Of a DNA stretch of 64,000 nucleotides, positions 3,635 through 56,932 are shown piece after piece. The notes below the pieces were generated by a model. That model was given only the letters and a program-made list of their open reading frames with translations. It had not been told where the DNA came from and searched no databases. How positions within the stretch are numbered: position 1 is the stretch's first letter; the number at the start of each line of letters is the position of its first letter. The stretch comes from Chryseobacterium sp. Marseille-Q5410 (GTDB lineage: Bacteria; Bacteroidota; Bacteroidia; Flavobacteriales; Weeksellaceae), in NCBI GenBank assembly GCA_946892665.1, contig CAMPOT010000001.1, positions 992,001 to 1,056,000 on the forward strand. Reading direction: 5' to 3'. Position numbers and translations under genes: made by a program.

Positions 3635-5728
3635 ATGAAAACAATTATTGCAGAAAAACCAAGCGTAGCAAGGGAAATAGCCGGACTTGTGGGAGCATCC
3701 GATAAAAAGGACGGCTACCTGACAGGTAACGGCTATTTTGTTACGTGGGCATTCGGTCATCTAATAGGACTGGGAATGCCAGAAGATTACGGGATTTCGG
3801 GATTTGACAAGGCATCCCTACCGATATTGCCCAACCCGTTTTTATTGACCGTTCGTAAGGTCAAAAAGGACAAAGGGTACACCGCCGATACTGGCGCAAT
3901 AAAGCAACTGAAAGTCATTGAGCAGCTTTTTAATAAAAGCAACAGCATCATCGTTGCTACCGATGCGGGTCGTGAGGGCGAACTCATTTTCAGGTACATT
4001 TATGAATACCTGAAATGCAACAAGCCATTTGAACGCCTTTGGATAAGTTCCCTGACCGAAAAGGCGATAAAGCAGGGCTTTGACAACCTGAAAAACGGAA
4101 ATGAATTTGACGGACTGTATCAGGCAGCGCAAGGCAGAAGCCGTGCCGATTGGCTTGTGGGCATCAATGCTACACAGGCATTGAGCATTGCCGCAGGCAA
4201 TGGTATCTATTCGCTCGGCAGGGTACAAACGCCAACACTGGCTTTGATATGCAAACGCTACCTCGACAATAAGAATTTCACGGTAAAGAAATACTGGCAG
4301 ATACAACTAATGCACAATAAAGCCCAGGTTGATTTCAAAAGTATTTCCGCAATTAAATGGGATGAAAAGCAGCTTGCCGATGATACGCTTAAAGCTATTC
4401 AGCGTGGCGCAACGGCAACCGTTACATCGGTAGAAATCAAAAGCGTTACAGAACAACCGCCCTTGCTTTTTGATTTGACAGGCTTACAAAAGGAAGCTAA
4501 CAAAAGGCTGAAATTATCTGCTGAAGCGACACTTAATATCGCACAAAGCCTGTACGAAAAGAAGTTTATCACGTACCCACGTACCGGAAGCAAATACATC
4601 CCTGAAGATATGTGGGCAGAAATTCCAAACCTTGTGCGGGCTTTGCAGAACCGTGAAGATTGCAAGCAAGCCCTTACCAAAATCAAATGGGGACGGTTCA
4701 ACAAACGTATCGTGAATGACCTCCGTGTAACGGACCATCACGGTTTGTTGATTACGGACAAAGTGCCGTCTGTACTCAATGCAGACGAAAACAAGATATA
4801 CAATATGATTGCGCTTCGATTGCTCGAAGCCATATCGCAAGCCTGTGGCAAAGAAATAACTGATGTATCATTACAGGTATTGCATTACGACTTTACGGCA
4901 AAAGGCTGTAAAATTCAGGAAGCGGGTTGGCGTTCCATAAAAGGAAGTTTTACCGATGACGGAGAAGAGCCAGTGCAGGAATTACCCGAACTGCATAAAG
5001 GCGACGAACTTGCCATAAAGGAAGCCGCCGTTTTGGAAAAGCAGACCAAACCGCCAGTGCTTTACACCGAAGCCGGGCTTTTGTCGGCTATGGAAACCGC
5101 AGGAAAGGAAATCGAAAACGAGGAAGAGCGCAAAGCTCTCAAAAATATCGGTATCGGTACGCCTGCGACAAGAGCCGCCATTATCGAAACTTTGTTTACC
5201 CGTAATTATATCGTTCGGGATAAACGTTCCTTAATTCCTACGGAAAAAGGATTGCAGGTTTATGAGTTGGTCAAAGAACGCAAGATTGCAGATGTGGCAA
5301 TGACCGCCGAATGGGAATTGGCATTGCAGAAAATTGAAAACAATGAAGCAGATGCCGGAACATTCCAAAAGGAAATGGAAACCTACGCCAAATCCATTAC
5401 CGATGAATTGCTGCAAACCTCTATTGCAAATACCAATCAGCCGAAATTGAACTGCCCAAGATGTAAAAATCAGCAACTTATTATTCGTGATAAGATTGTG
5501 AAATGCCCTGATGAGGCGTGTAACTGGGTACAGTTCCGCACCGTCTGCGGTGTACAAGTCAGTATCGAAAATGTAACAAGCCTTGTTAATAAGGGCAAAA
5601 CCTCTTTAATCAAAGGGATGACAAGCAAAGCCGGAAAGAAATTCGATGCTTATATCATTCTGAAAGAAAACGCCGAAAGTTCCTTTGAATTTGAGAAAAA
5701 CAAAAGCAGTAAGCGTAATGGAAAATAG
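3635..5728 (+). CDS. topB: DNA topoisomerase III (type IA)
   Basis: 697 residues. The N-terminus has the Toprim start (MKTIIAEKPSVAREIAG) and the acidic Toprim motif ATDAGREGELIFRYI near residue 110. The active-site tyrosine is in FITYPRTGSKYIP, Tyr314 by count. A C-terminal zinc-ribbon-like CPRC...CPDEAC segment lies near residues 610-630. Type IA enzymes pass single strands through a transient break and can unlink replication or transfer intermediates. ICE-borne copies are usual in this group and probably serve transfer or element replication. The last 11 bp overlap the next gene. Confidence 0.95.
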   Translation: MKTIIAEKPSVAREIAGLVGASDKKDGYLTGNGYFVTWAFGHLIGLGMPEDYGISGFDKASLPILPNPFLLTVRKVKKDKGYTADTGAIKQLKVIEQLFNKSNSIIVATDAGREGELIFRYIYEYLKCNKPFERLWISSLTEKAIKQGFDNLKNGNEFDGLYQAAQGRSRADWLVGINATQALSIAAGNGIYSLGRVQTPTLALICKRYLDNKNFTVKKYWQIQLMHNKAQVDFKSISAIKWDEKQLADDTLKAIQRGATATVTSVEIKSVTEQPPLLFDLTGLQKEANKRLKLSAEATLNIAQSLYEKKFITYPRTGSKYIPEDMWAEIPNLVRALQNREDCKQALTKIKWGRFNKRIVNDLRVTDHHGLLITDKVPSVLNADENKIYNMIALRLLEAISQACGKEITDVSLQVLHYDFTAKGCKIQEAGWRSIKGSFTDDGEEPVQELPELHKGDELAIKEAAVLEKQTKPPVLYTEAGLLSAMETAGKEIENEEERKALKNIGIGTPATRAAIIETLFTRNYIVRDKRSLIPTEKGLQVYELVKERKIADVAMTAEWELALQKIENNEADAGTFQKEMETYAKSITDELLQTSIANTNQPKLNCPRCKNQQLIIRDKIVKCPDEACNWVQFRTVCGVQVSIENVTSLVNKGKTSLIKGMTSKAGKKFDAYIILKENAESSFEFEKNKSSKRNGK

Positions 5729-6599
5729 ACGGTCAATCGTACCCAAAGAAATCAGGAACCTGATTTATACTATCCGGGGCAAACAGGTAATGTTGGATAG
5801 CGACCTCGCTGCCTTATATCAGGTGGAAACAAAGAACCTGAACAAAGCTGTTAAAAGAAATATTGAGCGTTTTCCTGTATCATTCTGCTTTCAACTGACC
5901 GAAGAGGAAGTTGAAAACTTGAGGTTCCAATTTGGAACCTCAAGTTTAAGCTACGGCGGCAGGCGTTATTTGCCCTATGTTTTTACTGAACAGGGCGTTG
6001 CTATGGCATCTGCCATACTCCGTTCCGATATAGCCGTTAAAATGAGTGTGGAAATAATGGAAGCCTTTGTAGAAATGCGGCGTATGCTTATCAGCAATGC
6101 TTCTTTGTTTCATCGTTTGGATAATATCGAATTAAAGCAATTGGAAGCCGACCAAAAATTTGAAGAGCTATTTAAGGCTTTGGAAAGCGATAAGCTGCAC
6201 AGCGAAAAAGGTATTTTCTACAACGGGCAGGTATTTGATGCCTACGCTTTTGTTTCCGATATTATCCGAAGTGCCAAAAATTCCATTATCCTACTTGATA
6301 ATTATGTGGATGATACGGTGCTTACTTTATTGGGTAAGCGTAAGAATAACGTAACCGCTGCAATCCTTACCAAAAGCATCAGCAATCAGCTACGGTTAGA
6401 TTTACAACGCTATAATAGCCAATATCCTCCGGTTGATATTGAGGTTTTTTCTGATGCCCACGACCGTTTTTTGATTATTGACCATACAGAACTCTATCAC
6501 ATAGGGGCATCACTCAAAGACCTGGGCAAAAAATGGTTTGCCTTTTCAAGAATGGATATTGAAGTCGGCAGGATGCTTCAAATCTTGAACAAACAATAA
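5718..6599 (+). CDS. ORF6N-domain protein with a PLD-like C-terminal domain
   Basis: 293 residues from the ATG at 5718, which overlaps the topB stop. Residues about 10-110 match the ORF6N domain (IRGKQVMLDSDLAALYQVET, then the YVFTEQGVAMAS signature), a DNA-binding module common in phage and ICE proteins. The C-terminal half has HDRFLIID near residue 248, which fits the phospholipase-D motif HxK(x4)D with Arg in place of Lys, followed by a GASLKDLG segment as in PLD-like ORF6N proteins. Only one such motif is present, so an active form would need a dimer. Regulator or nuclease is undecided. It ends at a two-way terminator. Confidence 0.8.
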   Translation: MENRRSIVPKEIRNLIYTIRGKQVMLDSDLAALYQVETKNLNKAVKRNIERFPVSFCFQLTEEEVENLRFQFGTSSLSYGGRRYLPYVFTEQGVAMASAILRSDIAVKMSVEIMEAFVEMRRMLISNASLFHRLDNIELKQLEADQKFEELFKALESDKLHSEKGIFYNGQVFDAYAFVSDIIRSAKNSIILLDNYVDDTVLTLLGKRKNNVTAAILTKSISNQLRLDLQRYNSQYPPVDIEVFSDAHDRFLIIDHTELYHIGASLKDLGKKWFAFSRMDIEVGRMLQILNKQ

Positions 6600-6604
6600 C
6601 AATA

Positions 6605-6627
6605 AAACCCTCTAATTAAGAGGGTTT
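6605..6627. terminator. Bidirectional terminator between convergent genes
   Basis: A perfect 9-bp stem (AAACCCTCT / AGAGGGTTT) with loop AATTA lies between the ORF6N gene and the HEPN gene on the other strand. T-rich sequence follows on both strands. Confidence 0.75.
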
Positions 6628-6643
6628 AACATTTGATAGAATA

Positions 6644-7408
6644 CTATAATTGTAATTGGGCGGTAATGCTTTTATAGTAAACTTTTAGTGCATCACGTTC
6701 ATCCTTACCAACGTAACTATTGTGGGCAACTAAACATCGTATCTTGTATAATTCGTCAACCATTACATTCAACCAATGTTCATTCTGTTTTGGGAAATGC
6801 TTTCCGAACACTGTCCAATTTCCGACTATTATTTTTCCTAACTCTATAAAGTCGCAATAAAACAAATCGCTATTACCTCGTATTGGTAAATATTTGCTCT
6901 CTTGCTCACTTTTCTTTAATTTATCTATTGTGTCTTGCACTCTTTTAGGAATATTTACAGTTTGTGACTTCATTATCTCTTCAATAAATATTCTTAATGA
7001 ATTTTCAATACAGTACAGGTACAAATATACTTCCGACATTTCTCTCCCTTTTTGTTGTATATCCTGTGGTAAAAGGTTTAAATGACCAAAGTTTACATTT
7101 TGCTGTATTTCTTCGATACTATCTAACAGCGAATTTTCATCTGAAATCAGAGGATAGAAGATTTCATTAATATATTTTCTCCGTTCTGCATACCCGCCTT
7201 TAGTCTGCATTTCTCTTCTAAATTCCTGAAGCGTAAAGCAGATTTTAAACTCTTTCGGCTCATTGGCTTTAAACTTAGCAGATTTGTTCAGTTCGCTTTT
7301 TAATCTCTTATATTCTGCTTCATTTTCAGTTGTTATATTAACATCAGTGGATGCTCCTGTAAGGAGTATTTTTAAGCGTTCAATATTTTCTGTATAATTC
7401 ATTTGCAC
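6644..7408 (-). CDS. HEPN-domain protein (Swt1/MAE_28990-like), partner of the DUF262 protein
   Basis: 254 residues, largely helical. The C-terminal part has KIRCLVAHN, which gives the HEPN R(x4)H motif (Arg224, His229 by count), and is preceded by a conserved-looking IVGNWTVFGKHF segment. HEPN proteins with this motif are often RNases in toxin-antitoxin and phage-defence systems. The gene starts 15 bp after the DUF262 gene ends on the same strand, so both likely form one transcript. It is visibly more AT-rich than the flanking ICE genes, consistent with acquired cargo. The nuclease role is inferred from the motif only. Confidence 0.65.
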   Translation of the reverse strand: MQMNYTENIERLKILLTGASTDVNITTENEAEYKRLKSELNKSAKFKANEPKEFKICFTLQEFRREMQTKGGYAERRKYINEIFYPLISDENSLLDSIEEIQQNVNFGHLNLLPQDIQQKGREMSEVYLYLYCIENSLRIFIEEIMKSQTVNIPKRVQDTIDKLKKSEQESKYLPIRGNSDLFYCDFIELGKIIVGNWTVFGKHFPKQNEHWLNVMVDELYKIRCLVAHNSYVGKDERDALKVYYKSITAQLQL

Positions 7409-7423
7409 TATTATTTCTATATA

Positions 7424-9559
7424 TTACTCTTCCGTGGTGGTATGTAGTTCTTCTTCTTCGAGCATAAAGTCAAGGAACAGCAATTCAGCTTTTGCGGTTT
7501 CATCTTCAAATTTTAAATCCCAACGCTGTTCCATAAATTCCAGTAACTTGTTACCTCTATCAAGTATGGTTTCAGAGTTCCATTCCTCGTATCCCGATAC
7601 TTCAATTTCTGAATGTGAACCGTCGGAATAACCTTGCCTTATTTTCTCTTTCTTTTCGTTGTACTTTGCCTTTTTCTTATCATCAAAGCAATCGTTTTGC
7701 AAACTGGAATTAATGCTTTGTGAAAGTGGCAAAAGATTTCCTAATGTTCCTTGAAAAAAAGGTAACTGTGACTTTTTATGACCTTTAAAACTGGATTTCC
7801 AGCTTGAATGTGTTGGAGTTTGGGGATAAATATGTTCAATGGAAACTTTGTCTTTTTCACTCTTTACAAATAACCTCCAATCAATCTTTTGACTTCCTCT
7901 TTGCCGTACTTTTTCCATTTCATACTCATATAGGAAATAGCGAAGTCCATTCCAATAATAAAAGCCACCCCCGCTTTTAAACTTCTTGTCAATAAATTTT
8001 TGAAAGTATGTATAATCGAAATAGGTTTCTTCAGAATTTTCAGGGGTGTAAAAACAGTAATTCATTCTGTCATTCAAGCGTTGGATAATAGTTTCAATAG
8101 TTAATTCGCTATTTCGCAACTGTCTTGCAGCCCGATAAAATTCACTGTTTCTATAAGTAGAAAAAGCTCGGCTTAGCCGGAATGTGATAAATATGAAACG
8201 CTCAATTGCTTTGAATAAGTTAATTCGTTTACTCGAATTAATATCCTTGTTTAAAAAAGATACGGTTACAAGCGGACGGAAATAAATTATACCAATTCTG
8301 TTCAATCGGTCTATCCATAGGCTTTCTTGTGTAGTCAAGTCTGGATTGTTTACCGGATTATGTGTATTATACCAATGAACAGCAGCAGCTTTTAAACTGT
8401 TTACATAGTCTTCGATTTCTTTAGGAGAAAGTCGAGAACGCATTACTATTATTTCGTCTTCTCCATTAATCTCAACCTCTTCCTGGTCGGTGTCTTCATC
8501 CTCTCTAACTTCTTCAAAATCCTGTAAAGAACTAACTCTCACTTCTGTTTTCGCATATATATTTTGTGGTGTAAATTTTTGCTCCAACAAAAACCTGATG
8601 TAATCATCGCCTTTTTCTCTTGTGTATTGAAAATACATTATCCAATGGGCTACTAAAAAATCATCATCGTTGAGTGGATTTTGTTTATTTCGTCCAAGCT
8701 GATAATAGACTTCTTTCCAAGCATCATTGATTTTCTCTCGCAAGGAATTTCGCTCATCATTTTTGAGCTCATTCTCATCGTACAAAGTGGTTAAATATAT
8801 TAAGCGATTTTTAAGAAGTTCTAAATTTGATAGTTTTTTTCCACGATTATTCATTGTTTCAAATGCAACAAAAACATCAAAATCATCGCTTATCTCATAA
8901 ACGTTAAACATTAGGTTTTGCGTGACCTTTTTGAACAACGCTTCAATTTCGTTTAAGCCATATTGGTCGAAATAATTTTGTAGATTTTCTTTGAAAAACC
9001 TTTTGGCATTTTCAAGATTTAGGGTATAAAAAGTTTCTTGAATTGTTCCGCTATTGGGTTCTAAAAAAATTCTATGTCGTAAAAATTTGAAACTTGGATT
9101 ATCAACCTCGTAGCCAAATTTGTATGTTTTGATAATAAATTGCGGAGGTTTTTCAATTACTAAATATTCTTCCTTAATGGCTTTTAAACTAAACGAACCA
9201 GGATAAATATCTTCATCCTTTTTATCCTTGTTTTCAGGTATGGCTTTGAGTTGTTCCGAGATAGCTTGTATAAAAACTACAAATGTTGTCAATCGTTGTT
9301 GCCCATCAACAATATGAAAAGGCTTGAAGCCTCTATCTTCAATCAGCCAACGCTCATCATTCCATTTACTCCAAGTATTTTTGTCTACTTTTTTTAAGGA
9401 CAGTAATCCCGTGTAATGAAATCTATCAGCGGGAAGATTAACTAAATCCTCCCAAAAATCTTTTAGTTGTCGTGTAGTCCAAGCGTAGCCACGTTGGTAG
9501 TCTGGTATTTTAAATATTCTGTCTTTAAAAATACTCTTTAGCGGTTCTAATTCATTCAT
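7424..9559 (-). CDS. DUF262-DUF1524 protein (GmrSD/SspE-like restriction or defence enzyme)
   Basis: 711 residues. The N-terminal DUF262 (ParB/sulfiredoxin-like) domain shows IPDYQRGYAW at about 18-27 and the hallmark VDGQQRLTTF at about 84-93, the nucleotide-binding signature of GmrS-type subunits. The C-terminal DUF1524 domain shows IEHIYPQTP at about 574 and GNLLPLS about 35 residues later, the His-Me nuclease pattern of GmrD. Single-chain GmrSD enzymes cut modified phage DNA. The downstream HEPN partner is not part of the classical system. It is a minus-strand cargo insertion between two plus-strand ICE operons. Confidence 0.85.
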   Translation of the reverse strand: MNELEPLKSIFKDRIFKIPDYQRGYAWTTRQLKDFWEDLVNLPADRFHYTGLLSLKKVDKNTWSKWNDERWLIEDRGFKPFHIVDGQQRLTTFVVFIQAISEQLKAIPENKDKKDEDIYPGSFSLKAIKEEYLVIEKPPQFIIKTYKFGYEVDNPSFKFLRHRIFLEPNSGTIQETFYTLNLENAKRFFKENLQNYFDQYGLNEIEALFKKVTQNLMFNVYEISDDFDVFVAFETMNNRGKKLSNLELLKNRLIYLTTLYDENELKNDERNSLREKINDAWKEVYYQLGRNKQNPLNDDDFLVAHWIMYFQYTREKGDDYIRFLLEQKFTPQNIYAKTEVRVSSLQDFEEVREDEDTDQEEVEINGEDEIIVMRSRLSPKEIEDYVNSLKAAAVHWYNTHNPVNNPDLTTQESLWIDRLNRIGIIYFRPLVTVSFLNKDINSSKRINLFKAIERFIFITFRLSRAFSTYRNSEFYRAARQLRNSELTIETIIQRLNDRMNYCFYTPENSEETYFDYTYFQKFIDKKFKSGGGFYYWNGLRYFLYEYEMEKVRQRGSQKIDWRLFVKSEKDKVSIEHIYPQTPTHSSWKSSFKGHKKSQLPFFQGTLGNLLPLSQSINSSLQNDCFDDKKKAKYNEKKEKIRQGYSDGSHSEIEVSGYEEWNSETILDRGNKLLEFMEQRWDLKFEDETAKAELLFLDFMLEEEELHTTTEE

Positions 9560-9595
9560 TATCTATTGTCTGTCGATTATCGTCGTTTTTACTTT

Positions 9596-9603
9596 CAAAA
9601 ATA
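9596..9603 (-). promoter_or_regulatory. Candidate -7 box for the DUF262-HEPN operon
   Basis: On the minus strand the sequence reads TATTTTTG, which fits the Bacteroidota -7 consensus TAnnTTTG, 37 bp before the start codon. No good -33 TTTG at the usual spacing is seen. Confidence 0.4.
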
Positions 9604-9636
9604 CAAATTAAATTCCTCGCTATTTAACTTCTTTAC

Positions 9637-9738: not shown

Positions 9739-10176
9739 ATGGATGTACAGCAAAAAGACCTATCGTATTTCAGATTACGACTGCAAGAATTATTAAACAG
9801 CAGCTTTCCCGAAAAGGCACACGACCAAAAATTCATTGACCAACGGTCTTCGTGGGCTGCCAATGCTTATGAGGGTGCTTTCCGTTCGGGAAATGCCGTT
9901 GAGCAATGCGACGAAATAGCCAACTATATACTTTTTGAGGGCTTACACTTCTCCAAGTTCGACACGGTTTTCAAAGTGGTATGCAATGAATTTGATACCA
10001 TAATGGCAGACGAGGAACTGCGACCGTTCGCCTTTAAAATGTTTCCCGTTTGTGAGCCTGTTTTCGCAGAATATGAATTAACTGATGATTTCGCCAACGG
10101 AAATGAGTTTGATGTACTCTATACCGAACTGACCGGAACCATCTCAATATGGATTGAGGAAAATGGGCTTCAGTAA
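9739..10176 (+). CDS. DUF1896 family protein
   Basis: 145 residues, acidic and apparently soluble. The layout ([20 protein letters not shown] at the start, then a conserved middle with [16 protein letters not shown]) matches DUF1896, a small family found next to the giant methylase-helicase gene in Bacteroidota conjugative elements. Its function is unknown. The 3' end overlaps the ATG of the next gene by 14 bp, so the two are translationally coupled and their products may work together. Confidence 0.8.
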
Positions 10177-25099: not shown

Positions 25100-26854
25100 T
25101 TATGCTCCTGCTATTTTTGTAAATTTTGGAGTATCAAATTTTGGTGTCGTTTTGGGTAAATCTACTTTGACCGATATAGGCATTGGAAAATCAACGCCCA
25201 TTATAATTGCTTCGCCGGAACCCAACGAAGGCAAAAAAGAAAGTGTTTCTTTATTCGCTGTTGAGCAAGCACTGGCTATTGCTTCTTTATCTTGATAATT
25301 AATTAATCTATGAGTAATGAATGTTCCCATCTGACTAAGTGTACCAACTGGAATATCTCTCGGCATTTGTGTTGATAAGCATAAAAACAATCCATATTTA
25401 CGGCTTTCTTTGGCAATATTATCAAAAGCATTTAATTCTGTACTTTCAAAATATTCATCCTTGACCTTTTTATTTAGGAACTGATGTGCCTCATCTACAA
25501 ATAGTATCAATGGCTTTTCTCTAAAAGCGTTTGTTCGTGCTTTATTCAATAAATATCTACCCAATGAATTTGCTAAAATCTCCCTAACCTGAAAATTGTA
25601 TGGTACGTTCTCAAATCCAATTCTTAAGACGTTCAAATCAGGATTATCTAAAAACTCATTTATTTTTGTGATTAGATTATTAGTCGTCGGTGCATTAAAT
25701 CCAAACATTCCGGAGTAGTCGTTGTCAGATATGACATTGTTGACACGCATTATCAAACTTGTCGCATTGCCGTAATTCCTTTCATCTCTATTAGCTGCCC
25801 AACGGTCGTTGAATATCTGAAAACATTCATTACCGATTTGTCTGTGAAGCAGGTTAATACCAAAATTGTTTATAGAGAAATCTTCGACTATCGCTTTATA
25901 AGTAAAGTAGGCATTATTGTAAGCGGCAGTCAAATTGCCCTGCTTCACAACTAATCCATTATTTAATATTACTTGTTGCCCACGGAATGTAAAGCTGTCG
26001 TTAGTTCCATCATTATTATGCCCGTTATTGGGAATATTACTCATTAGACAATGGGCTACTTTCAAAGATTTTATTGCTTCCAGTAAAACGGGTTGCTGAA
26101 CCTGTCCAGATGGTCTGAACAAAACAAATAAATCATTTATAGTTAAGTTTTGATAGGGAAAATAACTTTCCGAAATAAGAATGGAATGTGTAACTTTTGG
26201 ATGTGTGTCGAATGTAGAATACTCTCCCGTTGGGTCTAAAATAATTGCTTTCGCTCCTGTTTCTATTACTCCCTCCAAAAACTTGCTGATTGTATAACTT
26301 TTACCTCCACCAGTAGTTCCAACTACTGCACAGTGCCGACTGAAAATAGCCTGAAGAGATATATCTACTGGGACATTTTTGTCATAAATTAGATTACCCA
26401 TTCTAAATGTTGGCGAATGTTCAATGTTCTCTGGTTTTATTCCAAAAGTTTTAAAATGAGTAGAAAGAAATTCCGATGAACAAATAAAAACTTTAGAACC
26501 TATAAGGGGTAAACTATTTATCCCTTTTTCTATTTTACTTGGATTAAACAAGTCAAATGATAAGAGAATTTCTATTCTGCCTACGGGATGAAACGCCTTA
26601 GTTGAAAAGGTTCTTTCGCTTAATTCTAATCGTTCTTTTTCAGGTAAAGATATTTCTAACATTTTACCCAAAAATCCTTTGTCTTCCCCCTCAATAACAA
26701 TATAATTACCGACAAGTCCACCACGCAAGACTTCTGCGTGATGTACAAATGTTTTCATCAAAACAGAGGATGGAAAATGCACTTTAACAAAGGCAGGAGA
26801 TACAAAATTTATATAGCCAAGAAAATGACTGTGATTAAAAGGGCTATTGCTCAT
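25100..26854 (-). CDS. herA: HerA-like ATPase of a SIR2-HerA defence system
   Basis: 584 residues. An N-terminal HAS-barrel-like region (1-170) precedes Walker A GTTGGGKS at 179-186; Walker B LILFVDEAHQFLN follows in the C-terminal third, with a later QMPRDIP/THRLINYQD motif typical of HerA/DUF87. HerA forms hexamers that translocate or sense DNA. Its start lies 2 bp after the SIR2 stop, so the two are tightly coupled. SIR2-HerA pairs are known anti-phage systems that deplete NAD+. Inserted against the direction of the tra genes. Confidence 0.9.
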   Translation of the reverse strand: MSNSPFNHSHFLGYINFVSPAFVKVHFPSSVLMKTFVHHAEVLRGGLVGNYIVIEGEDKGFLGKMLEISLPEKERLELSERTFSTKAFHPVGRIEILLSFDLFNPSKIEKGINSLPLIGSKVFICSSEFLSTHFKTFGIKPENIEHSPTFRMGNLIYDKNVPVDISLQAIFSRHCAVVGTTGGGKSYTISKFLEGVIETGAKAIILDPTGEYSTFDTHPKVTHSILISESYFPYQNLTINDLFVLFRPSGQVQQPVLLEAIKSLKVAHCLMSNIPNNGHNNDGTNDSFTFRGQQVILNNGLVVKQGNLTAAYNNAYFTYKAIVEDFSINNFGINLLHRQIGNECFQIFNDRWAANRDERNYGNATSLIMRVNNVISDNDYSGMFGFNAPTTNNLITKINEFLDNPDLNVLRIGFENVPYNFQVREILANSLGRYLLNKARTNAFREKPLILFVDEAHQFLNKKVKDEYFESTELNAFDNIAKESRKYGLFLCLSTQMPRDIPVGTLSQMGTFITHRLINYQDKEAIASACSTANKETLSFLPSLGSGEAIIMGVDFPMPISVKVDLPKTTPKFDTPKFTKIAGA

Positions 26855-26856
26855 AG

Positions 26857-28062
26857 TTAGGTATTGGGAATATTAATTACTATTTGTCTTGTATCCTCCT
26901 GATTGTAAGATTTTAAATCAGGATAGTTTTTGGCGAAATCTTCAAAGGTTTCAGAAACAATACTTAAGTTGGAATATTTCTTTGAAGCCTCAATAAAGGG
27001 TTTCAGGTTTTCGTTGGTTTCATCTATTCCCCGATTAATAATCATCAATTGGAAACTTGGATTTTGTTCAAGAGCTTCTACAATGGCAGTAACGATATGC
27101 TTATCTCCGAAACTAAACCCCATCGTTATTAGAAAAACATTATCCTTGCGGAGATTAGCCTGGAACCGTGACATCATCTCGAAATATGGCTGTTCATAAG
27201 AACTCTCATATTTAGACTGATGTGGGTATATCATCAACGGATTATCAGGATTTTCTTTTTGTATGATTTTATTGTCTTGCTTTTCCCAATTAACAGAACC
27301 GTGTAATTTATACAGGTGGAAAACTTTTTGAATGAAATTATCCTCCTCTTTAACTCTACTTTGATTTCTGGAAACAATATCATAGTCATAATTACGCCCG
27401 CTAAAAATTCTTGGTTGTGAAAATGAAAAACCGTCAACAACAACAAAATTGCTTTCACACGCTGCTTGTTCAAACATCATATCGTAGTTCAACGTGAATA
27501 ATTTAAATCGAGGTAGAGTGACCTTACGTTTTGTTATTTTATTAAGCAATAATGTATGTGGCGAGTTGTCAGGCAGGCTTAACTGACAGGCTTCTTTGAT
27601 AAAATCCTTAATCTTGTTCACACAATCCTCAATATCAATATCAGCTTTAGGTACATAAGGAATTGCAGGAGTAGCCATAGAAAGAACTTTTTCCAAATTC
27701 TTGACTATTGAACCGTCTTCCCACTTTTCATCGTAGCCGATTGTTTCAAGTAACTTTTCAAAAACTTCAGATGTTAAGAGAGCTTCAGCGTCGTCCCATA
27801 GATTAGCCATCGACTTTCCTAATTTACCATCTTTGCCCCAACCTATGGAAGAACCTGCGCCTGTTAAAAGAAGCAAATTCTCAAACTGATTATTTAGAGT
27901 TTGTGAATATTTATTCCGTTTTGTTGCAATAGCATAATCAACTCTATTCTCCGTGCTGTCTTTAAAATCGTGAAGTTTACCATCTATATAAACCTTTACG
28001 TCGTCTGCTTCACTATCGTCATAGGCAACAGAACTATTATTATTTAGTAAAATATATTTCAT
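26857..28062 (-). CDS. SIR2-domain NADase of a SIR2-HerA defence system
   Basis: 401 residues from the ATG at 28062; a GTG six bases earlier is possible. SIR2-type signatures appear in order: LLTGAGSSIGWG near residues 65-76 (nucleotide site), FTLNYDMMFEQ near 190, HLYKLHGSVNWEK near 255 (catalytic His region), and ITMGFSFGDKHI near 320. Members of this group hydrolyse NAD+ on phage sensing and partner with HerA. The gene is the first of the pair, 73-80 bp downstream of an XRE regulator on the same strand. AT-rich relative to the tra genes on both sides. Confidence 0.88.
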   Translation of the reverse strand: MKYILLNNNSSVAYDDSEADDVKVYIDGKLHDFKDSTENRVDYAIATKRNKYSQTLNNQFENLLLLTGAGSSIGWGKDGKLGKSMANLWDDAEALLTSEVFEKLLETIGYDEKWEDGSIVKNLEKVLSMATPAIPYVPKADIDIEDCVNKIKDFIKEACQLSLPDNSPHTLLLNKITKRKVTLPRFKLFTLNYDMMFEQAACESNFVVVDGFSFSQPRIFSGRNYDYDIVSRNQSRVKEEDNFIQKVFHLYKLHGSVNWEKQDNKIIQKENPDNPLMIYPHQSKYESSYEQPYFEMMSRFQANLRKDNVFLITMGFSFGDKHIVTAIVEALEQNPSFQLMIINRGIDETNENLKPFIEASKKYSNLSIVSETFEDFAKNYPDLKSYNQEDTRQIVINIPNT

Positions 28063-28141
28063 ACGCACATACTTTTATATTTATTTAAGTTTATACCAAA
28101 CAGTTAGTTCAAGACTTTCAAAACACACTGCCGCTACATTC

Positions 28142-44107: not shown

Positions 44108-45358
44108 TTAGATTGCCATCATAAATGCTTCTTCCATAGCCTTGAATTTCGGCGTAACCAAATCCATATCCTTACTGATTTTTTGGCTTGTGATTTTAGC
44201 GTAAATCTGTGTGGTGGAAATATTTTTGTGTCCCATCATTTTGCTAAGGCTTTCAAGCGGTACGCCCTCGGTCAAAAACATTGTTCCGAAAGTGTGTCTT
44301 GCGGTGTGAAACGTTACTTTTTGTTCTGTAATAATTTCAGCTTTTTCAACCAGTTTACCTATGTGAGTATTGCAGGTTGAATTGGTCGGAGCCGGAAAGA
44401 TAAATTCATTTCTTGTCGTACCCTGATACTTCTCAATAATACGTTTAGGGATTTCCATTAACCGAACATTGGAAGCAATATCTGATTTCTTTCTCCTGCT
44501 GATAATCCATTGATGACCATCAAAGAATGATTGAATATTGTTCCTTGTCAGTTTCTTAATATCCGCATAAGCAAGCCCAGTAAAGCAACTAAAAATGAAC
44601 AGGTCTTTTACCAGTTCATACCGTGGGTGCGGTGGTACGCACATCATCAGCTTTTCTACATCTTCTTTAAGGATATAACCCCGGTCGGTTTCTTCCATAC
44701 TGATTTCGTAATCCTGAAATGGATTATCACGTATCAAGCCTTTTTTAATAGCCAGTTCCGCCAGACTTAATACAGGCATAGTGTAAACCCAAACCGTATT
44801 ATGCGAAGACTGCAAATCGTACCGGAGGTAAAAATCAAATTCACGAATGAAATCGGCAGTCAATTCCCGAAATGCCATATCATCACGATGATAGCGTTCT
44901 TTGATAAACGTGGTAAGATGATTGTAAACCGTGATGTACTTGTTATAGGTACTTTGGGAACGTTCTTCCTTTTCGACCATTTTTTTAAAACCCTCATTTT
45001 GGTCGTTAAAGACTTTTAATATTGCATCATCCATTACACCAACACCCAAAAACGATAGCTTCACTTTTTGGGAGGTCGCAAAGCCCTCGTGCTTCAGCAT
45101 ATCTTCATAAATCTTGTCGATACGCCCACGTATGTTATCCAGTTTTTTATTGATGCTTAATGCCTGCGCACTTTTGCCCTGAACTCTTCCGTGTTTTAAA
45201 TCCCAATTATTGGGGTCAATTTCTAACTTTGTACCGAAAGTTTTAGGGGTTCCGTCAATGGTAATACGTGCCATAATCGGGGCATTACCGTTCTTTTTCA
45301 GTTCGTTCTTTTTCAAATAGAAAAGCAGTTTGAACGTCGATTTTTTTGTCTGCTCCAT
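44108..45358 (-). CDS. int: Tyrosine site-specific integrase of the ICE
   Basis: 416 residues, near the length of IntDOT. An arm-binding domain (1-100) and a SAM-like core-binding domain (about 110-210) precede the catalytic domain, with HTAR (His351, Arg354), GHKN (His377) and the nucleophile Tyr386 in TTQIYAKI, by count. The first catalytic Arg is absent: the place reads CFTGLAYADI instead of TGLR. Loss of this Arg is known in IntDOT. It lies at the element end, transcribed inward, 230 bp from the attachment core. Confidence 0.92.
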   Translation of the reverse strand: MEQTKKSTFKLLFYLKKNELKKNGNAPIMARITIDGTPKTFGTKLEIDPNNWDLKHGRVQGKSAQALSINKKLDNIRGRIDKIYEDMLKHEGFATSQKVKLSFLGVGVMDDAILKVFNDQNEGFKKMVEKEERSQSTYNKYITVYNHLTTFIKERYHRDDMAFRELTADFIREFDFYLRYDLQSSHNTVWVYTMPVLSLAELAIKKGLIRDNPFQDYEISMEETDRGYILKEDVEKLMMCVPPHPRYELVKDLFIFSCFTGLAYADIKKLTRNNIQSFFDGHQWIISRRKKSDIASNVRLMEIPKRIIEKYQGTTRNEFIFPAPTNSTCNTHIGKLVEKAEIITEQKVTFHTARHTFGTMFLTEGVPLESLSKMMGHKNISTTQIYAKITSQKISKDMDLVTPKFKAMEEAFMMAI

Positions 45359-46406: not shown

Positions 46407-48020
46407 TTAATTCCTGTTCAACCTCCTATTCGACAACTTCTTCCAAATTCTATCCGCAATTTGAACCTCCTTTTCAGTAAAACCGTAATTTTCAATTAAG
46501 ATTTTTTTATTTGTGATTTCAAGTATTTTATCAATACTTTCGTTAGCACGAATCATCTTGTCAATAGTTTCTACAAGATTTTTGTTTGAATCGTGATATG
46601 GAAGCATAATGTTTTCAACTTCACTTGGCATTAACTCTAAAACACCTCCGCCATGACTTCTACCTGAAATTTCAGCAAATGCTAACGACAATGAATTATA
46701 ATAACTTGCTACAAGTGCATCTAAATTTACATCTTTTTTGATATTCACTCTATGCATTGTATCTGTTGTGTATACATCTGCTTCGTTGATAATTAACTTG
46801 GGATACAAATGATTTCTTCTGATGAATAAAGCATCTGACAATTTTTGTGAAGGTATTATCTGCCACTCATCTCGAATTCCGCATTTATAGCCTTTGTTAA
46901 TGCCTTGCTCGACACCAAACTCCAAATAATCTCTAGCACCTACAGAACCATTCAAGTCTTTCATTTTTGGAAAAGAGAGCAAATGGGTTCTTGCTTGACT
47001 ATCCCTATTTTTTTCCCAATCTTCCTCAGTAAAAATCAGACTTGGAACCTGAACACTTCGCCCAACCAATGGTTTTGCATATTTTTCTAATCCGTAGAAT
47101 TGTACTGTTGATAACGGAACGGTAAAAAATGGATTTGAGCCAGTAGTAATACCTACTTCCACATCAGCGAACTTTCCAAGTTTCGGAACTGTTTTGTTTT
47201 CCTGCAAACCTTCAAGGAAATCTATTTCATCTTGGTCTAAAAAATAAAAAGTCCATTTGTTTGATTTGAAATCGATTGTCTTTTGAGGATTTTTCAGTTT
47301 TGAAATATCTAAGTCTTTCAAATCATCAGCATTTCTTAACTCTAAATGTTCAATTTTGTGAGAGTTTGTTCCATCTTTCTCGCAAAGAAGTAAAACTACC
47401 TCTTGTTGAATTTCAGGAAAAACAAGTTTTTCAAAAGAAACGATATTAATTTTGTTGTAGAAGTGTGCTAAAAATTCCCTCAATTGTTGTGCATAAGAAA
47501 CTTGTAAGACCTCTGCAGGAAGCACAAATGCAATTTTTCCTTTTTCTTTCAATAATTGACTTGAGCCTACTACAAATGAAACCCACGCATTGGTTAATTT
47601 TGAATATTTTAATTTAGATTTTTTAAAAATCTTTTCAGCAAGTTGTTGCTGTTCCTTGCTAAAATATTGGTATCTTATATATGGCGGATTACCAATAACT
47701 AAATCAAATCTATCATCTGTATTTAGACAATAATTATGAAAATCATCGTTAATTAGGTTGGAATTTTCTAAACCAATTGACTTAGCTTTTTCATACTCAT
47801 ATTCGTCAAACTCAACTGCCGTAAATGAATGATAAGATATTTTCCTTTCTTTAGCAATTTGAAGAAAAATTCCATCACCACAACTTGGTTCCAAAATGTC
47901 CATTGACTTATTACCATTGATTGCCCATTTCAGCATGAAGTCAGCAATTTCTTTTGGTGTATAAAATCCTCCTCTAAGTTTATCTTTACTTGCATCCTTA
48001 ATCAGTACCATAACTTTCAT
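46407..48020 (-). CDS. N6-adenine DNA methyltransferase (Eco57I-like)
   Basis: 537 residues. GGFYTPKEIADFML at 17-30, the SAM-binding motif EPSCGDG at 44-50 and catalytic NPPY at 111-114 define a class I N6-adenine methylase; the C-terminal half would be the target-recognition domain. No nuclease motif is seen. It overlaps the upstream nuclease-methylase gene by 23 bp. It may modify a second sequence or strand, or protect the host from its neighbour. Very AT-rich. Confidence 0.88.
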   Translation of the reverse strand: MKVMVLIKDASKDKLRGGFYTPKEIADFMLKWAINGNKSMDILEPSCGDGIFLQIAKERKISYHSFTAVEFDEYEYEKAKSIGLENSNLINDDFHNYCLNTDDRFDLVIGNPPYIRYQYFSKEQQQLAEKIFKKSKLKYSKLTNAWVSFVVGSSQLLKEKGKIAFVLPAEVLQVSYAQQLREFLAHFYNKINIVSFEKLVFPEIQQEVVLLLCEKDGTNSHKIEHLELRNADDLKDLDISKLKNPQKTIDFKSNKWTFYFLDQDEIDFLEGLQENKTVPKLGKFADVEVGITTGSNPFFTVPLSTVQFYGLEKYAKPLVGRSVQVPSLIFTEEDWEKNRDSQARTHLLSFPKMKDLNGSVGARDYLEFGVEQGINKGYKCGIRDEWQIIPSQKLSDALFIRRNHLYPKLIINEADVYTTDTMHRVNIKKDVNLDALVASYYNSLSLAFAEISGRSHGGGVLELMPSEVENIMLPYHDSNKNLVETIDKMIRANESIDKILEITNKKILIENYGFTEKEVQIADRIWKKLSNRRLNRN

Positions 48021-50967
48021 TAATTTTTGGAATTAGAATGTCATCTTCTCCAAGGTTATAAAGCTCTTTTAATAAATTGTCTAACTCAGTTTTCTTTTGG
48101 GAAAACCGTCTTTGCAAAGGAGTCAACCTACGGTTGTTGTTTTGATTTTCATCAATATTTCCTTGCAATTGTATCAACTCACGTTGAGTTCTAGAAATAT
48201 TATCATGTATTTCTTTTTCTGCTTCATTTTCAAAATCTATTTTCCTAATCGGAAGTTTTTTCAATACTTTAGTTCCTCTTGCAATAAAACCGCCTCGGAA
48301 AACTTCTCCATAAAGTGATGCAAACCATTCACAATATTTAGAATTCAGTAATGCTTGGATATAATAAATTGAATATGTAAAGTTTTCAGGCAACGTAACC
48401 ATACAGTATCCCGCAGTTCCACCCGATGAAATAAAAGTATGGCTTGTATCAATAGCATATTTGTCGCCTTGTGAAAGCACACCAACAACAATTTTTGCAG
48501 GAACATCGCACTTTTCTAAGCTTTGATGCCTTCCGAATCGATACCATTCTTCATTTGTCTCAGGTTCGGGTTTTATATCTCGCTTTTTTAATTCCTCACT
48601 GTAGTTTTCGAAAAACCTAAATGTTTCAGGATATTCACTATGTAAAGTTTCAATATTTACAAAGTTGATACGTCCGTTTTCATTTTTATAAGGATAAATC
48701 ACAAATGAATTAGGGTTCAGGATACGATAAGTATTAAGATTATCAATTCCTCTTGAAGTTTGAAAATAGGGTCTTGTTAATTCTTTTTCAACCTTCCATT
48801 CTTCATCATCCAAATTGAAATAGAAATAGTTATCATCTTCATTTGTAGCATAATGAACATAAATTCGGTTATCACTTGTTTGTATTCCGTTGAAAATATT
48901 TTCGTTTCCAATCAAATCAGCAAGTTTGATGCTTTGCTCCGAAATAGAATTAAAAATTGGCTTTAAATGATTAGGTGTCAATACCCAAGTGTTTTCATCT
49001 AGATTTTGATATTCAACATCATCAAATTCAATAGAGTAGTTTTTCACTTTCCAATTGTTCATGTTTTCTACTTCATGATAAAGCAAAGATTCCTTTTCCT
49101 GCTTTCTTAAAAGAAGAATACAGGTATAGGTCGTTTTATCTTTGAAAACTTGATTTGCACCAAAAGAAATAATTTTTTCAACTGCTTTTTCCTCGGAAAG
49201 CAGCTTTCGTAGATTTTTTCCCGCTCCAACTTTTGCAAACTTGCTTGGAATAATATAACCTAAAATTCCACTTGGCTTTAGCAATTCAAATCCTTTTTGA
49301 ATAAATAGAAAATATTTATCAAACTGCATAAAAGCAGTTGTATAATCGCGTTTATAGATAGGTAATTCTTCGGGGGTGAATCGTTTAATATGCTTAGTTG
49401 CCATATATGGCGGATTTCCTACAATAACATCAAATTTGATATTACCAAAATCGAACGGATTGATTTCTTCACGATTGTCCGAATCAGTTTGGCTAGATTC
49501 AATTAAACTGTTTCCATACTGAATATTGTTATCGAGGTTAGGCAAAGCAGGAATAGAAATACTATTATTATCTTCGTCTTCCAAAAGTTTGAGAAGCAAA
49601 CCAAACTTACATGCTTCAACTGCATTGAAATCTTTGTCAACTCCGAAAATACAACGAAGTAGAATATGCTTTTTAACTTCAAATTTCAGTTTAAAGTTGT
49701 TTATTCCTGTTTGAATTAATTTCGAAGAATCATTTACCATATAATAATCCACCAAAATATCTTGCAATAACTGAAACGCTTCGAGCAAAAATGCACCGGA
49801 TCCACAAGCTATATCAGCAAATTTTGAATTAAAAATCTCTTCGTCTGACTTCCCATCGCAAAACTTCTTAATGGTCTCATTAAGAATGTCTCTTACAATA
49901 AATGTTGGTGTCGTAACAACATCTCTTTCTTCAATTTCAGGCTTCTTCTTGAGTTGTACACTGCCATTTTCTAGCTTTAATTGTTGACCTAGAAAAATCT
50001 CATAGATATGTCCTAAAATATCCGATGAGAAAACTGCAAACGAATAAGAACTTTCAGGGAAATAGAGTTGTTTAATAATTTGCCAAAATGCTTTGCTATC
50101 ATTGGAAATGATTTCCTCACTTAATGGTTGAGTAAAGAGACCTGCATTATATTTTGAATCTGCAATCCTAAATTTTGCTATTAATAACGTGAAGTTTTCA
50201 TTTTCTGCGAGATTATACAGGGTTTTATAAATTTCCAAATTTCTATCTTCGCAAACTCTCAAAAACACAATGCTGTTGATATAACTTTGGACAATATCAT
50301 TCAGCTGAAATTCATCAATGTTTGGGTTTTTTGCAACAATCTCATTTCCTAGCAATATTCGCCATTCATTGATTTGATTTAAAAATAAATCGTCAATATT
50401 ATATTTTTGAATTTGTAATTCAATATTTTCCCAAACTTCATCAAACTGTCCTGTATAAACAGAATCTTTTCCTATTAGAGATTTTATTTCCTCTAATTTT
50501 TCTTCATATTCAGTAAAATGATACAATCTTAATCTTCGTTTCGAAACAGCATCATTTGGTTGAACAACTTCTGAACAATCGTAGATTGCTAAATATTCAA
50601 AATTTGTGAGAACTGAAATTTTAAGTTTCGCTGTAAAACCATATCTTCTAACCTGTTTAGCAGGTTCGGGATCGGTTTCTATTTTAACGAACGGCTTTTT
50701 GGCTTCAACAAAAAATTTTCTATCTGCGAATAATCTGAAAGTGTAATCAGGTTTTTTGGTGTTTTCGTTTGCATCTGCACGTAAAGCTTCCTCAACCAAA
50801 ACTTCTCTTTCGTTTGTTGGTCTTCCTTGAGCATTTGTAATATCCCAACCTAAAATAGTGAATAGCGGGTCTAGAAAATCAGTGCGTAGCTGAGTTTCGT
50901 TATATGAAGCAGTTGTAAATCTTGACTTTTCGGCTTCAAATCTTTGTATTAAATCTCTTAATTCCAC
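47998..50967 (-). CDS. Nuclease-methylase fusion (type IIG restriction enzyme)
   Basis: 989 residues, GTG start. The N-terminal PD-(D/E)XK nuclease domain has PDYTF (Asp74) and FVEAKK (Glu88, Lys90). A helical connector follows, then motif I ADIACGSGAF near 390 and the catalytic GNPPY near 518, then a target-recognition region with IIPSKFAKVG and a C-terminal coiled coil. Such single-chain enzymes both cut and methylate. The start codon overlaps the XRE stop by 1 bp. With the XRE gene, the second methylase and the NTPase it forms one defence operon. Confidence 0.9.
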   Translation of the reverse strand: MELRDLIQRFEAEKSRFTTASYNETQLRTDFLDPLFTILGWDITNAQGRPTNEREVLVEEALRADANENTKKPDYTFRLFADRKFFVEAKKPFVKIETDPEPAKQVRRYGFTAKLKISVLTNFEYLAIYDCSEVVQPNDAVSKRRLRLYHFTEYEEKLEEIKSLIGKDSVYTGQFDEVWENIELQIQKYNIDDLFLNQINEWRILLGNEIVAKNPNIDEFQLNDIVQSYINSIVFLRVCEDRNLEIYKTLYNLAENENFTLLIAKFRIADSKYNAGLFTQPLSEEIISNDSKAFWQIIKQLYFPESSYSFAVFSSDILGHIYEIFLGQQLKLENGSVQLKKKPEIEERDVVTTPTFIVRDILNETIKKFCDGKSDEEIFNSKFADIACGSGAFLLEAFQLLQDILVDYYMVNDSSKLIQTGINNFKLKFEVKKHILLRCIFGVDKDFNAVEACKFGLLLKLLEDEDNNSISIPALPNLDNNIQYGNSLIESSQTDSDNREEINPFDFGNIKFDVIVGNPPYMATKHIKRFTPEELPIYKRDYTTAFMQFDKYFLFIQKGFELLKPSGILGYIIPSKFAKVGAGKNLRKLLSEEKAVEKIISFGANQVFKDKTTYTCILLLRKQEKESLLYHEVENMNNWKVKNYSIEFDDVEYQNLDENTWVLTPNHLKPIFNSISEQSIKLADLIGNENIFNGIQTSDNRIYVHYATNEDDNYFYFNLDDEEWKVEKELTRPYFQTSRGIDNLNTYRILNPNSFVIYPYKNENGRINFVNIETLHSEYPETFRFFENYSEELKKRDIKPEPETNEEWYRFGRHQSLEKCDVPAKIVVGVLSQGDKYAIDTSHTFISSGGTAGYCMVTLPENFTYSIYYIQALLNSKYCEWFASLYGEVFRGGFIARGTKVLKKLPIRKIDFENEAEKEIHDNISRTQRELIQLQGNIDENQNNNRRLTPLQRRFSQKKTELDNLLKELYNLGEDDILIPKINESYGTD

Positions 50968-51663: not shown

Positions 51664-54600
51664 ATGTCAAAGATAGGACGAAACCAACCTTGCCCTTGTG
51701 GAAGTGGGAAAAAATTCAAAAAATGTTGTATTGATAAGCCAATACAACACTCAAATATAAATTCAAATAGGAAAAATAGCTTTGAAGAATTTGTTAAAAA
51801 TAATAAATCAACATCTTTATTGAAGTTTTTCTCATTACTTCAAGTTTTACCTGAAAATCACGGAAAAATTGTTAGGTTGGAGGACATTCAGACAACTATA
51901 GCTTCAAACCTCAATAACGCACAATCAAACATTGACCTTTCAATTTTGAAAAAATTAGTTGATAAGAACTTTCCTGATGACTATAGAGAAGATCCTCCCG
52001 AAAATTGTTTTACTGAGAATATAATGTTTCACAATGGTAACAATGTTGTTTTCACAGGAATAAATCACAATGCAACTGAAATAATTCAAAATCTTATTAG
52101 AGTAATTTTTCATACTCCAAACAATCTCAATGAAGACCTGAAAAATTATGTTAGTGATGGTTTATTATTTATGTTGTTAATTCATAATGAAATAGCGAAA
52201 AACTTGGGGTTTTCAAGAAATATGTCAGGTAGTAGTTTGGAAAACAATATTACATTTCCATCAGATGACTTATTAAAGTACACGCAACTTTTTGAGTTTC
52301 CCGAAAAAATGATTTTTGAATTGTTAAAAAAACTTGGAATTAATAAAGATGTTATTAATGACTTTCTATGTGATGTTAATTTGATTAAAGAAAATCAAAA
52401 TAGCGAAATTCCTCTCTTATGCTATAAACCATTTATTAAAGTAAACAAGACATATTTTCTTGTTCTTCCAAGTAGTGAACTTTTTGCGATAAATAATTTC
52501 ATTGTAGAAAAATTTGAACAATTTGGTGAACTTGACAATCTAATCGGTTTTTTTGATAAGTTTTCAATTTTTGAAATTAAAAAGTTATTTATTGGGATTG
52601 GATGGGAGCAAAATCAAGAGTTTTCATTAGATGTTGAACAATCATTATGGAAATTTGATGAAAACAAATATGCATTTATTCAGTATTTGGGAACAAATGA
52701 TTTTAATAATTCGCTGAAACTTCAAAAGAAAGTTAATGATAAAGTTCAAGAGATAAAAAATGTCTTGCCACCACACGCAGAAATTCTAATGTTATTTGTT
52801 TACAGTCAAATATCAATGATTGAGATGTTAGCGATTAATACTTTTGATGTCAAGGCAGCGAAATATCAATCAGCACTAAGTCTAATTGATTTTGAAAGAA
52901 TTATTCAAAACTATAATATTGATAAACTTTCTCTCTGGAAGTTGTTTAAGGCAAAAGAAAGAGCAAGAGAGAAAGGTTTGTATTTATTTGCGACACCTGT
53001 TCATAACATAATGACTGATTTTGAATGGTATAACAAACAAGGAGAAACATTTTTACACCCTGATGAAAAGTATGATTTTGTTAATTTTAGTTTTGATGTT
53101 CAAGGAAATGCGGCAATAAAATCCATTCAAAAAAAGGACATTCATTTAGTAAATTACATTAATGAAGATAAAACAAAAGGTTTTCTTCCAGTAATTAAGT
53201 CTGAAATTTATGCTCCAATTTATTTGTCTGAAGAAATATTTTTCGGAAAATATAGATTGGTTTTAGAAAAATATAATTTCCCATTATGGATAACCTTTGA
53301 AAATAAATATAGAAAAATTGGCAGTTCATACGCTGAGGCAATTGCCTATTGGTTTAATCGAATTCATTATTTGCTAAATCCTCTTACTAAAAATTTTCAC
53401 GAACCTATTGAAGTAATTTTGAGCTTTGAAGATAATTTTATTAATCTTTCAATAGAAGAATTTAGGAAATTAGAAAAAAATACTGTTTTGATTGATTATC
53501 AAATTGATAGTGATACAAACAGGATAAATTTAAGGATCCCAAATACTTTTTTTAATTTGACAAATAGAGATGATAATTCAAGTGAAATCTATTTGATTCG
53601 AATATTGTTAGAGTCTTTAGGAAAATTATTTGAGAAAAAAACAGAAGTAAATATTTCTGCTGAAAATATTCACGCAATATTAGAGAATATTCCTAATGAC
53701 AATACTAAGATGTTACTTAGTGCTACTTCAGAACTAAAAATTGACTTGGATGAAAGGCACATTCCAAAGGTAAGATATATTCCAAAAGCTGATGGTTCAA
53801 TTGTTTTGGAGGAATTAAAAAATTGGGTTCCAAATAAAATTCCTGAAAATATTGATAATAAAAGTGATAAAGTTAAGCTATGTGATGTAATAATATCAAG
53901 TCTAATAAAAAAAATCAGAGAAGAGTTACAAAATTATAATTGCTTTGCGGTTTTAGAATATTTGATGCTGAGATACGAATCGACTCTAAATTTTAGAGCC
54001 TTTAGAAGTATCAAAGTTGTAACCCAACTAAAATGTTTTGGAGAATATAGAGATATATTAGAGGAATATCATAATTCTGATGTGCAAGCAGTTAGGCTTT
54101 CTCTTTCTTCAAGATGTTTAATTGAATTTGTTACTGCTGAACCTTATTTTGGAGAAAAGCCGATAAATGAGGATGATTTAGATTTTTTGTTAGCATTAAT
54201 GGATGAGTTAACCTATTTTGGTACTATTAGAGATTTAATTTTTTTTGATTTAGACAATCCAAAAGTTGGATTGTTGGCATCTGGAAGAATTGGTGTAAGT
54301 AAAGAATTTTTTGATGATACAATGTCTAAATTCAATTTAGAAACACGTAAAGACGAATTAGGTCATTATGTAAAGTCATTTAAAACAAATTATATAACTA
54401 CAAAACAGAGAGAAAGGAGTAATACCATTGAAAATGATAATGAAGATTATTATCAATTATTAGATTCAGCCTTTTTAAACGACTGGGGAATGACTTTGCC
54501 AAATATTGTTGGAGTTTTAAACTTAATAGCGCATTATTGTCTAGAGAGTAAACGCTCTTGTATGTTTATGAAAGAAGATGACTTCATATCACTTTTAAAA

Positions 54601-56833: not shown

Positions 56834-56932
56834 TCAATTCTCTTGCTCAATATACAAATCGGGAATTTTCATTTCCTGTGCGGTAAATCTTATTGCCAGC
56901 TGAAATAAGGTTTTGTTTTCGTGAAGATTCAT
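56834..56932 (-). pseudogene. Stub of an AbiEii-type toxin gene
   Basis: The ATG overlaps the antitoxin stop (ATGA). The 32 residues MNLHENKTLFQLAIR...IPDLYIEQ match the start of AbiEii nucleotidyltransferase toxins, which go on with a DYW-type motif. Here a stop follows at once (QEN*). The catalytic part is lost, so only the antitoxin remains. Confidence 0.72.

Follow-up and report, generated by a model that had tools for sequence, protein, structure and literature searches.

A predicted DUF262–DUF1524 nuclease and a Swt1-like HEPN protein encoded in an apparently exchangeable cargo cassette of Bacteroidota conjugative elements

When a predicted modified-DNA nuclease and a predicted RNase are encoded side by side, do they form one coupled defence system, or do they only share a place in a mobile element? 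This question is raised by a 64,000-nucleotide stretch of Chryseobacterium sp. Marseille-Q5410 (contig CAMPOT010000001.1, positions 992,001 to 1,056,000; hereafter the window), in which a DUF262–DUF1524 gene is followed by a gene for a Swt1-like HEPN protein. A first-pass annotation of this sequence proposed that the two proteins carry out a two-stage defence, with restriction first and RNA cutting or dormancy second, a plausible hypothesis. As to the pairing itself, it proves to be recurrent, operon-like, apparently exchanged as a unit and constrained in both genes; it is also bound to one kind of slot, its HEPN gene occurs without the DUF262 gene, and linkage of this type was already in print.

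The DUF262–DUF1524 gene (7424..9559, minus strand) appears in the open reading frame list as a 711-residue frame, and its Pfam matches above the curated cut-offs, GmrSD_N (4e-29) and GmrSD_C (2e-16), make it a single-chain predicted nucleoside triphosphate (NTP)-dependent nuclease. A DGQQR motif stands at residue 85 and HIYP at residue 576, the latter within EHIYP, a His-Me-finger motif of the (D/E)HIxP type. Among aligned DUF262 relatives, DGQQR is present in 15/15 and EHIxP in 13/15, both figures including all 6 element copies aligned. The HEPN gene (6644..7408, minus strand) follows after a gap of 15 bp (7409..7423, minus strand) and encodes 254 residues with a Pfam match to HEPN_Swt1 (5e-7; 30.4 bits against a curated cut-off of 27.5). 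Its R(x4)H motif, formed by R224 and H229, supplies two of the six invariant columns in an alignment of 18 hand-chosen rows, the most divergent being 20% identical to the window protein. Two matches whose C-terminus is of the Abi_C type and offers no residue equivalent to H229 (L127 and L128) were removed before this count. The anatomy of the pair and its conserved catalytic motifs can thus be read from the sequence, and coordinates, Pfam and motif all bear out the initial observation of two frames 15 bp apart on one strand, the HEPN frame with an intact R(x4)H. Because most listed relatives begin at an in-frame ATG at codon 3 (position 7402), the HEPN protein may start there, which would give 252 residues, a gap of 21 bp and a motif at R222/H227, the residue numbers used until now being two too high. 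PADLOC models matched by the pair are HEC-06, Orf5, SspE and mREase_IV for the nuclease and PDC-M34B (2e-26) for the HEPN protein.

The predicted HEPN model is all-helical (predicted local distance difference test, pLDDT, 83.5; predicted template-modelling score, pTM, 0.55) and has an extra N-terminal helical region of ~100 residues. A Foldseek search with this model returned no match at E 0.001. VIA ranked residues 510-620 of AbiA, its C-terminal part, first (Z 7.0, root-mean-square deviation 3.4, 100 aligned) and also returned Csm6 (Z 5.0, root-mean-square deviation 4.2, 109 aligned), a ranking that agrees with a HEPN fold, though both scores lie under the level trusted for helical models. 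When solved structures were searched by sequence, DUF262 had no match at 0.01, and the HEPN profile gave just two rows, at E about 0.5.

A pattern scan of 84,980 species genomes, which reaches close relatives only, yielded 17 loci with a close HEPN homologue, 15 of them with a DUF262 gene directly upstream. With the window and five more loci that have a close HEPN (G075, G302, G584, G179 and G398), the set grows to 23, with HEPN identities of 63% or more, and the pair is present in 19 of these. Some of the 19 are near-copies, since clustering at 99% DNA identity reduces them to 13 groups. An adjacency kept in 19 of 23 loci exceeds chance, yet all 19 pairs occupy the same type of element slot and do not represent independent origins. 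The co-occurrence across genomes that the first-pass annotation named as a check holds in part: the pair is not confined to this genome, but it was seen solely beside the DUF1896 gene of the element.

Two of the four loci without a DUF262 gene also lack element flanks. In Flavobacterium sp. Leaf82 (L015) the HEPN protein is 74% identical and a GIY-YIG-type gene lies 10 bp after it; in L118 (G398) HEPN identity is 63–64%, and the flanks are missing from the fetched stretch. Here (L118, 5412-6860) the HEPN gene is preceded by a 222-residue gene with a CxxC...EH start, HNH-like by eye and without a Pfam match, which is perhaps a different DNase partner. At L097 (G179; 4263-7774), within the slot, an AAA/OLD-like ATPase gene (PADLOC ATPase-Toprim_I-B, 4e-31) stands directly upstream of the HEPN gene, a partner swap in one slot. 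Broken copies also occur, with the DUF262 gene split in L004 and L007 and the HEPN gene interrupted in L017; sequence quality may be at fault in L007, since its topoisomerase gene is also split.

The pair is laid out as one operon, with a common strand, a short gap (15–30 bp in pair copies with listed frames), a promoter-like element upstream and a terminator-like hairpin downstream, and the two genes would be co-transcribed. The upstream element, TATTTTTG (9596..9603, minus strand), resembles in sequence TAnnTTTG, which we take to be the Bacteroidota -7 consensus. TA(T/C)TTTTG stands upstream of the DUF262 gene in 7 element copies displayed and is missing in L080, a locus outside the element slot. 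The hairpin (6605..6627, minus strand) lies where the HEPN and ORF6N genes converge; a terminator scan found 3 candidates against 1.9 expected in shuffles and is therefore weak by itself, and similar hairpins occur at the empty slots displayed.

The host of this operon is probably mobile. Other genes of the window read, by eye, as an integrase gene (44108–45358) and as conjugation genes, among them those for a relaxase and a coupling protein and a tra operon, and because of these genes the region is regarded as an integrative conjugative element. On the right, all 19 pairs have a DUF1896 match at a distance of 179–201 bp from that of DUF262 (window gene at 9739..10176, plus strand). On the left, an ORF6N-domain gene (5685..6599, plus strand) and a topoisomerase gene accompany 15 of the 19; both are missing from the fetched stretches of L011, L012, L018 and L098, so this flank varies. 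Between the flanks lies the cargo cassette (6628..9634), its ends approximate and set by eye against eight empty sites.

Of 320 genomes in the family to which the window belongs, 82 contain DUF1896 places, and 60 of these places were fetched, a sample that omits known pair or HEPN loci, some places near contig ends and lower-ranked ones. Together with four known loci, this gave 64 loci, 57 of which had both the topoisomerase gene and DUF1896. Nineteen of the 57 were empty, defined as having no gene of at least 90 residues between topoisomerase and DUF1896 except ORF6N, a class that takes in more distant elements with topoisomerase identity down to 49%. The other 38, three of them known pair or HEPN loci, were filled according to an automatic and rough split (the "cargo" of L167 looks like element genes). 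By eye, slot cargo includes type I restriction–modification, metal-resistance-like, ArsR-like, ATPase and other genes, the ATPase of L097 being the one examined by scan. A TTTGTAnnTTTG element stands upstream in 11 of the 38 filled slots (9 of 35 without known loci, several of them with one common cargo) against 0 of the 19 empty ones, under a strict pattern that overlooks variants such as L117; its restriction to filled sites is consistent with cargo that carries its own promoter. These comparisons point to a slot in Bacteroidota conjugative elements that swaps cargo cassettes and elsewhere is empty or occupied by other cargo.

Codon differences at positions encoding the same residue suggest how the pair travels. 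Between L005 and L006 they amount to 0.8% in the HEPN gene and 1.7% in the DUF262 gene, against 18–37% in four element genes (topoisomerase, ORF6N, DUF1896 and a 486-residue upstream gene), and between L013 and L117 to 2.8% and 3.6%, against 19–41% in element genes. The opposite is seen in L010, whose backbone is closer to that of the window (6–19%) than its pair is (25% and 34%). In 150-base steps, identity is 96–100% across the cassettes of L005/L006 and L013/L117 and falls near the cassette ends, to mostly 56–93% in the flanks. The final L005/L006 block, inside the topoisomerase gene, is 99% identical, so the backbones are mosaics too. Judged by these alignments, the pair moves between element backbones as one unit.

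Both genes appear functional and under strong purifying selection. Among element copies, median ratios of nonsynonymous to synonymous substitution rates (dN/dS) are 0.026 for HEPN (134 pairs) and 0.035 for DUF262 (97 pairs), and 0.074 for topoisomerase (102 pairs) and 0.080 for DUF1896 (148 pairs), in a set that keeps near-duplicate copies and omits frame-broken ones; many dS values exceed 1, so the absolute values are rough. Against the window, three copies whose dS is lower (L003, L009 and L010) have values of 0.026–0.044 in the pair, compared with 0.061–0.082 in topoisomerase.

Genuine as the pairing is, its kind is already described: HEPN–ParB/HNH linkage and the idea of restriction plus dormancy have been in print since 2013. 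A table in Anantharaman 2013 (PMC3710099) lists a Swt1-like HEPN fused to ParB(DUF262)+HNH (VNG7073). The paper also lists an Abi2-type HEPN associated with a protein that has ParB and HNH domains, as well as MAE_28990-type HEPN genes in operons with a ParB nuclease, and proposes that HEPN proteins linked to restriction–modification are released once restriction is neutralised or overwhelmed. The window pair has the same HEPN family and the same kind of nuclease partner, but unlike in the tabulated fusion its genes are separate and lie in an element cassette, and its HEPN protein has the extra N-terminal region. The VNG7073 fusion is quoted from the table and not confirmed, the gene not having been matched among pNRC100 proteins; of five hypothetical proteins scanned from a 49-kb part of plasmid pNRC100, one (L268:43260-44657) gave an HEPN_Swt1 match of 9e-4, below the cut-off, and showed no match to DUF262 at 0.01.

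Other known systems resemble parts of the pair. GmrSD, BrxU and SspE have the same two domains, DGQQR and His-Me-finger motif as the window nuclease, which differs from them in being followed by a HEPN gene and in having no BREX or Ssp genes adjoining. PD-T4-2 of E. coli is entered under both DUF262 and HEPN in a review (PMC10952713), a likeness by description; unlike the window nuclease, it has no DUF1524 according to that review. Deletion of PD-T4-2 is described in PMC9519451 as giving more T4 plaquing. PMC12839542 describes effectors in the vicinity of BREX that are HEPN enzymes or members of the GmrSD family, and PMC11090510 describes type IV systems with HEPN effectors. The PADLOC candidate PDC-M34 consists of a DUF5343 gene (PDC-M34A, matched at 2e-81 by the gene of L096) and a HEPN protein of ~195 residues; the window HEPN matches its PDC-M34B model but is longer, and membership was ruled out, as the neighbours are DUF262–DUF1524, ORF6N and DUF1896 genes with no DUF5343. 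The DUF262–HEPN element cassette itself was not found described in the literature searched, which left subscription papers and preprints outside.

Outside the slot, the two families have varied company. DUF262 matches occur in 80 of the 320 family genomes, seven of them at 84% or more, and the HEPN gene is present in six of these seven. In the seventh, G281 (L080, 6002-9188), a DUF262 gene 84% identical to that of the window is followed after ~140 bp by a 312-residue gene with an RNEI(I/V)H motif. This gene matches phrog_31026 (6e-24), a phage protein family of uncharacterised role, and no Pfam or PADLOC family; its motif is common to its one relative (1 of 196 genomes), which has no DUF262 among two genes either side. 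It was considered as a possible second, convergent HEPN-type partner, a proposal left unproven; its structure prediction was of no use (pLDDT 35). The pattern scan of viral contigs gave no relative of the HEPN gene or of the 312-residue gene, and at 0.01 nothing related to the HEPN turned up in plasmids.

Acinetobacter accounts for 31 of the 33 plasmid records that match DUF262 (42–45% identity), and the one neighbourhood opened is a BREX operon. A DUF262 relative on a Picosynechococcus plasmid (52%) adjoins a DUF3320 gene, Streptococcus suis prophages carry relatives at 50–51%, and some relatives, read by eye, lie in type I restriction–modification neighbourhoods. A DUF262–HEPN fusion was sought as proof of linkage and rejected, the extra C-terminus of the S. 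suis prophage relative (51%, 939 residues) being DUF4268 + DUF7662 and not HEPN. On the HEPN side, distant members are often shorter, and L121, among 8 distant loci, has a weak DUF262 match (7e-4) ~2 kb away among genes read as restriction–modification. A further 30 loci comprised one L080-type gene, one known pair, 23 with HEPN by profile and five without (L263–L267), which were dropped; an adjacent DUF5343 gene is found in 7 of the 23.

The reading we favour, with evenly balanced confidence, is a coupled two-effector operon directed against phages or mobile elements, which integrative conjugative elements of Bacteroidota carry as exchangeable cargo. In it, the DUF262–DUF1524 protein would sense incoming, probably modified, DNA with NTP hydrolysis in its DUF262 domain and would cut or nick DNA with its His-Me-finger domain. 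The HEPN protein, made from the same transcript, would dimerise and cut RNA via R224/H229; as the second effector, it would slow either the cell or the phage once DNA cleavage has been set off or has failed. We infer both enzyme activities, the defence role and any signal between the two proteins. In its favour are the domain matches and conserved catalytic motifs, the presence of the pair in 19 of 23 loci, its exchange as a unit, the correlated synonymous distances given below and the low dN/dS of both genes. The established proposal of HEPN–restriction coupling (PMC3710099) also speaks for it, as do the DUF262 relatives in a BREX operon and, by eye, in type I restriction–modification neighbourhoods.

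A serious rival, which we consider quite possible though less probable than coupling, is that one mobile cassette packages two independent defence genes, the first for a type-IV-like nuclease and the second for an unrelated HEPN protein of abortive infection, which share only promoter and slot. Several observations count against coupling, many of them directly in favour of this rival. The slot carries differing cargo; in Flavobacterium hibernum (L014) HEPN stands alone at the same site with TA(T/C)TTTTG retained, and in L097 a frameshifted HEPN gene in the same slot has an AAA/ABC-type ATPase upstream. HEPN relatives accompany DUF5343, GIY-YIG-type and other genes, fusion to DUF4268 and a place in a BREX operon are both seen among DUF262 relatives, and the DUF262 gene persists beside the interrupted HEPN of L017. 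None of 13 fetched DUF262 loci outside the pair has this HEPN (blastp 1e-3; many weaker matches unfetched), the 8 distant HEPN loci have no adjacent DUF262, and the 23 further HEPN loci have no DUF262 match among two genes either side. Since 0 of the 13 sampled DUF262 loci outside the slot have the HEPN, a single pairing event that spread in this element lineage is suggested, and the partnership looks, as far as sampled, to have arisen once.

What stands against independence is that 19 of the 23 close-HEPN loci keep the genes adjoining through exchange between backbones, and that their synonymous divergence is correlated. HEPN and DUF262 synonymous distances correlate at rho 0.74 (n=13), against 0.32–0.45 (n=11–13) for pair genes with element genes, with synonymous sites near saturation in many comparisons and some element genes correlating equally strongly among themselves (0.79). 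Protein-level distances tell against coupling, the weak HEPN–DUF262 correlation of 0.27 lying under HEPN–topoisomerase (0.39) and HEPN–ORF6N (0.46). Because adjacent genes recombine together, joint movement speaks for a shared cassette and is not proof of shared function.

A more far-reaching form of coupling, which we regard as unlikely, is that of a two-part immune system spread by conjugation. In it the type-IV-like enzyme would directly switch on a dedicated HEPN RNase on meeting modified DNA, the HEPN being an interchangeable effector that the element lineage could couple to other sensors in the slot, such as the L097 ATPase. A toxin–antitoxin or addiction pair, in which the DUF262 protein restrains a HEPN toxin and stabilises the element, is more improbable still. 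HEPN toxins are parts of many toxin–antitoxin systems, as PMC3710099 states, and the pair lies on a conjugative element; however, the HEPN frame is open with no DUF262 within ~6 kb each side in L014 and L015, and in ~6 kb upstream in L118 (contig end downstream), an antitoxin elsewhere in these genomes not having been sought. The presumed antitoxin would moreover be a 711-residue nuclease, and this reading is unlikely because each gene occurs without an intact partner. That the genes are functionless neighbours or a sequence artefact, as the broken copies (DUF262 in L004 and L007, HEPN in L017 and L097) might suggest, is scarcely credible and, for the family as a whole, largely refuted by median dN/dS near 0.03 for both genes (134 and 97 pairs) and frames open in most copies.

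The window holds further defence-type genes. Genes for a HerA-type ATPase and a SIR2-domain protein lie back to back at 25100-28068 (minus strand; PADLOC HerA 1e-167, SIR2 3e-89) and probably make up a Sir2–HerA defence system within the same region. At 46407-50967 (minus strand) a type II-like DNA methyltransferase gene adjoins a PADLOC type IIG restriction–methyltransferase match (E 0). An AbiEi-like gene is found at 56929-57651 (minus strand; PADLOC 5e-54), a 1233-residue SEC-C protein with a PADLOC Upx match (2e-38) is encoded at 51664-55365 (plus strand), and an AEP-TOTE primase–helicase protein at 60632-63595 (plus strand; Pfam 1e-82).

The DUF262–HEPN cassette offers a compact, repeatedly transferred case for testing the idea, proposed in 2013, of HEPN RNases as a backup to DNA restriction. 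Natural single-gene variants are available for comparison, with HEPN only in L014, an interrupted HEPN in L017, and a DUF262 gene without this HEPN in L080.

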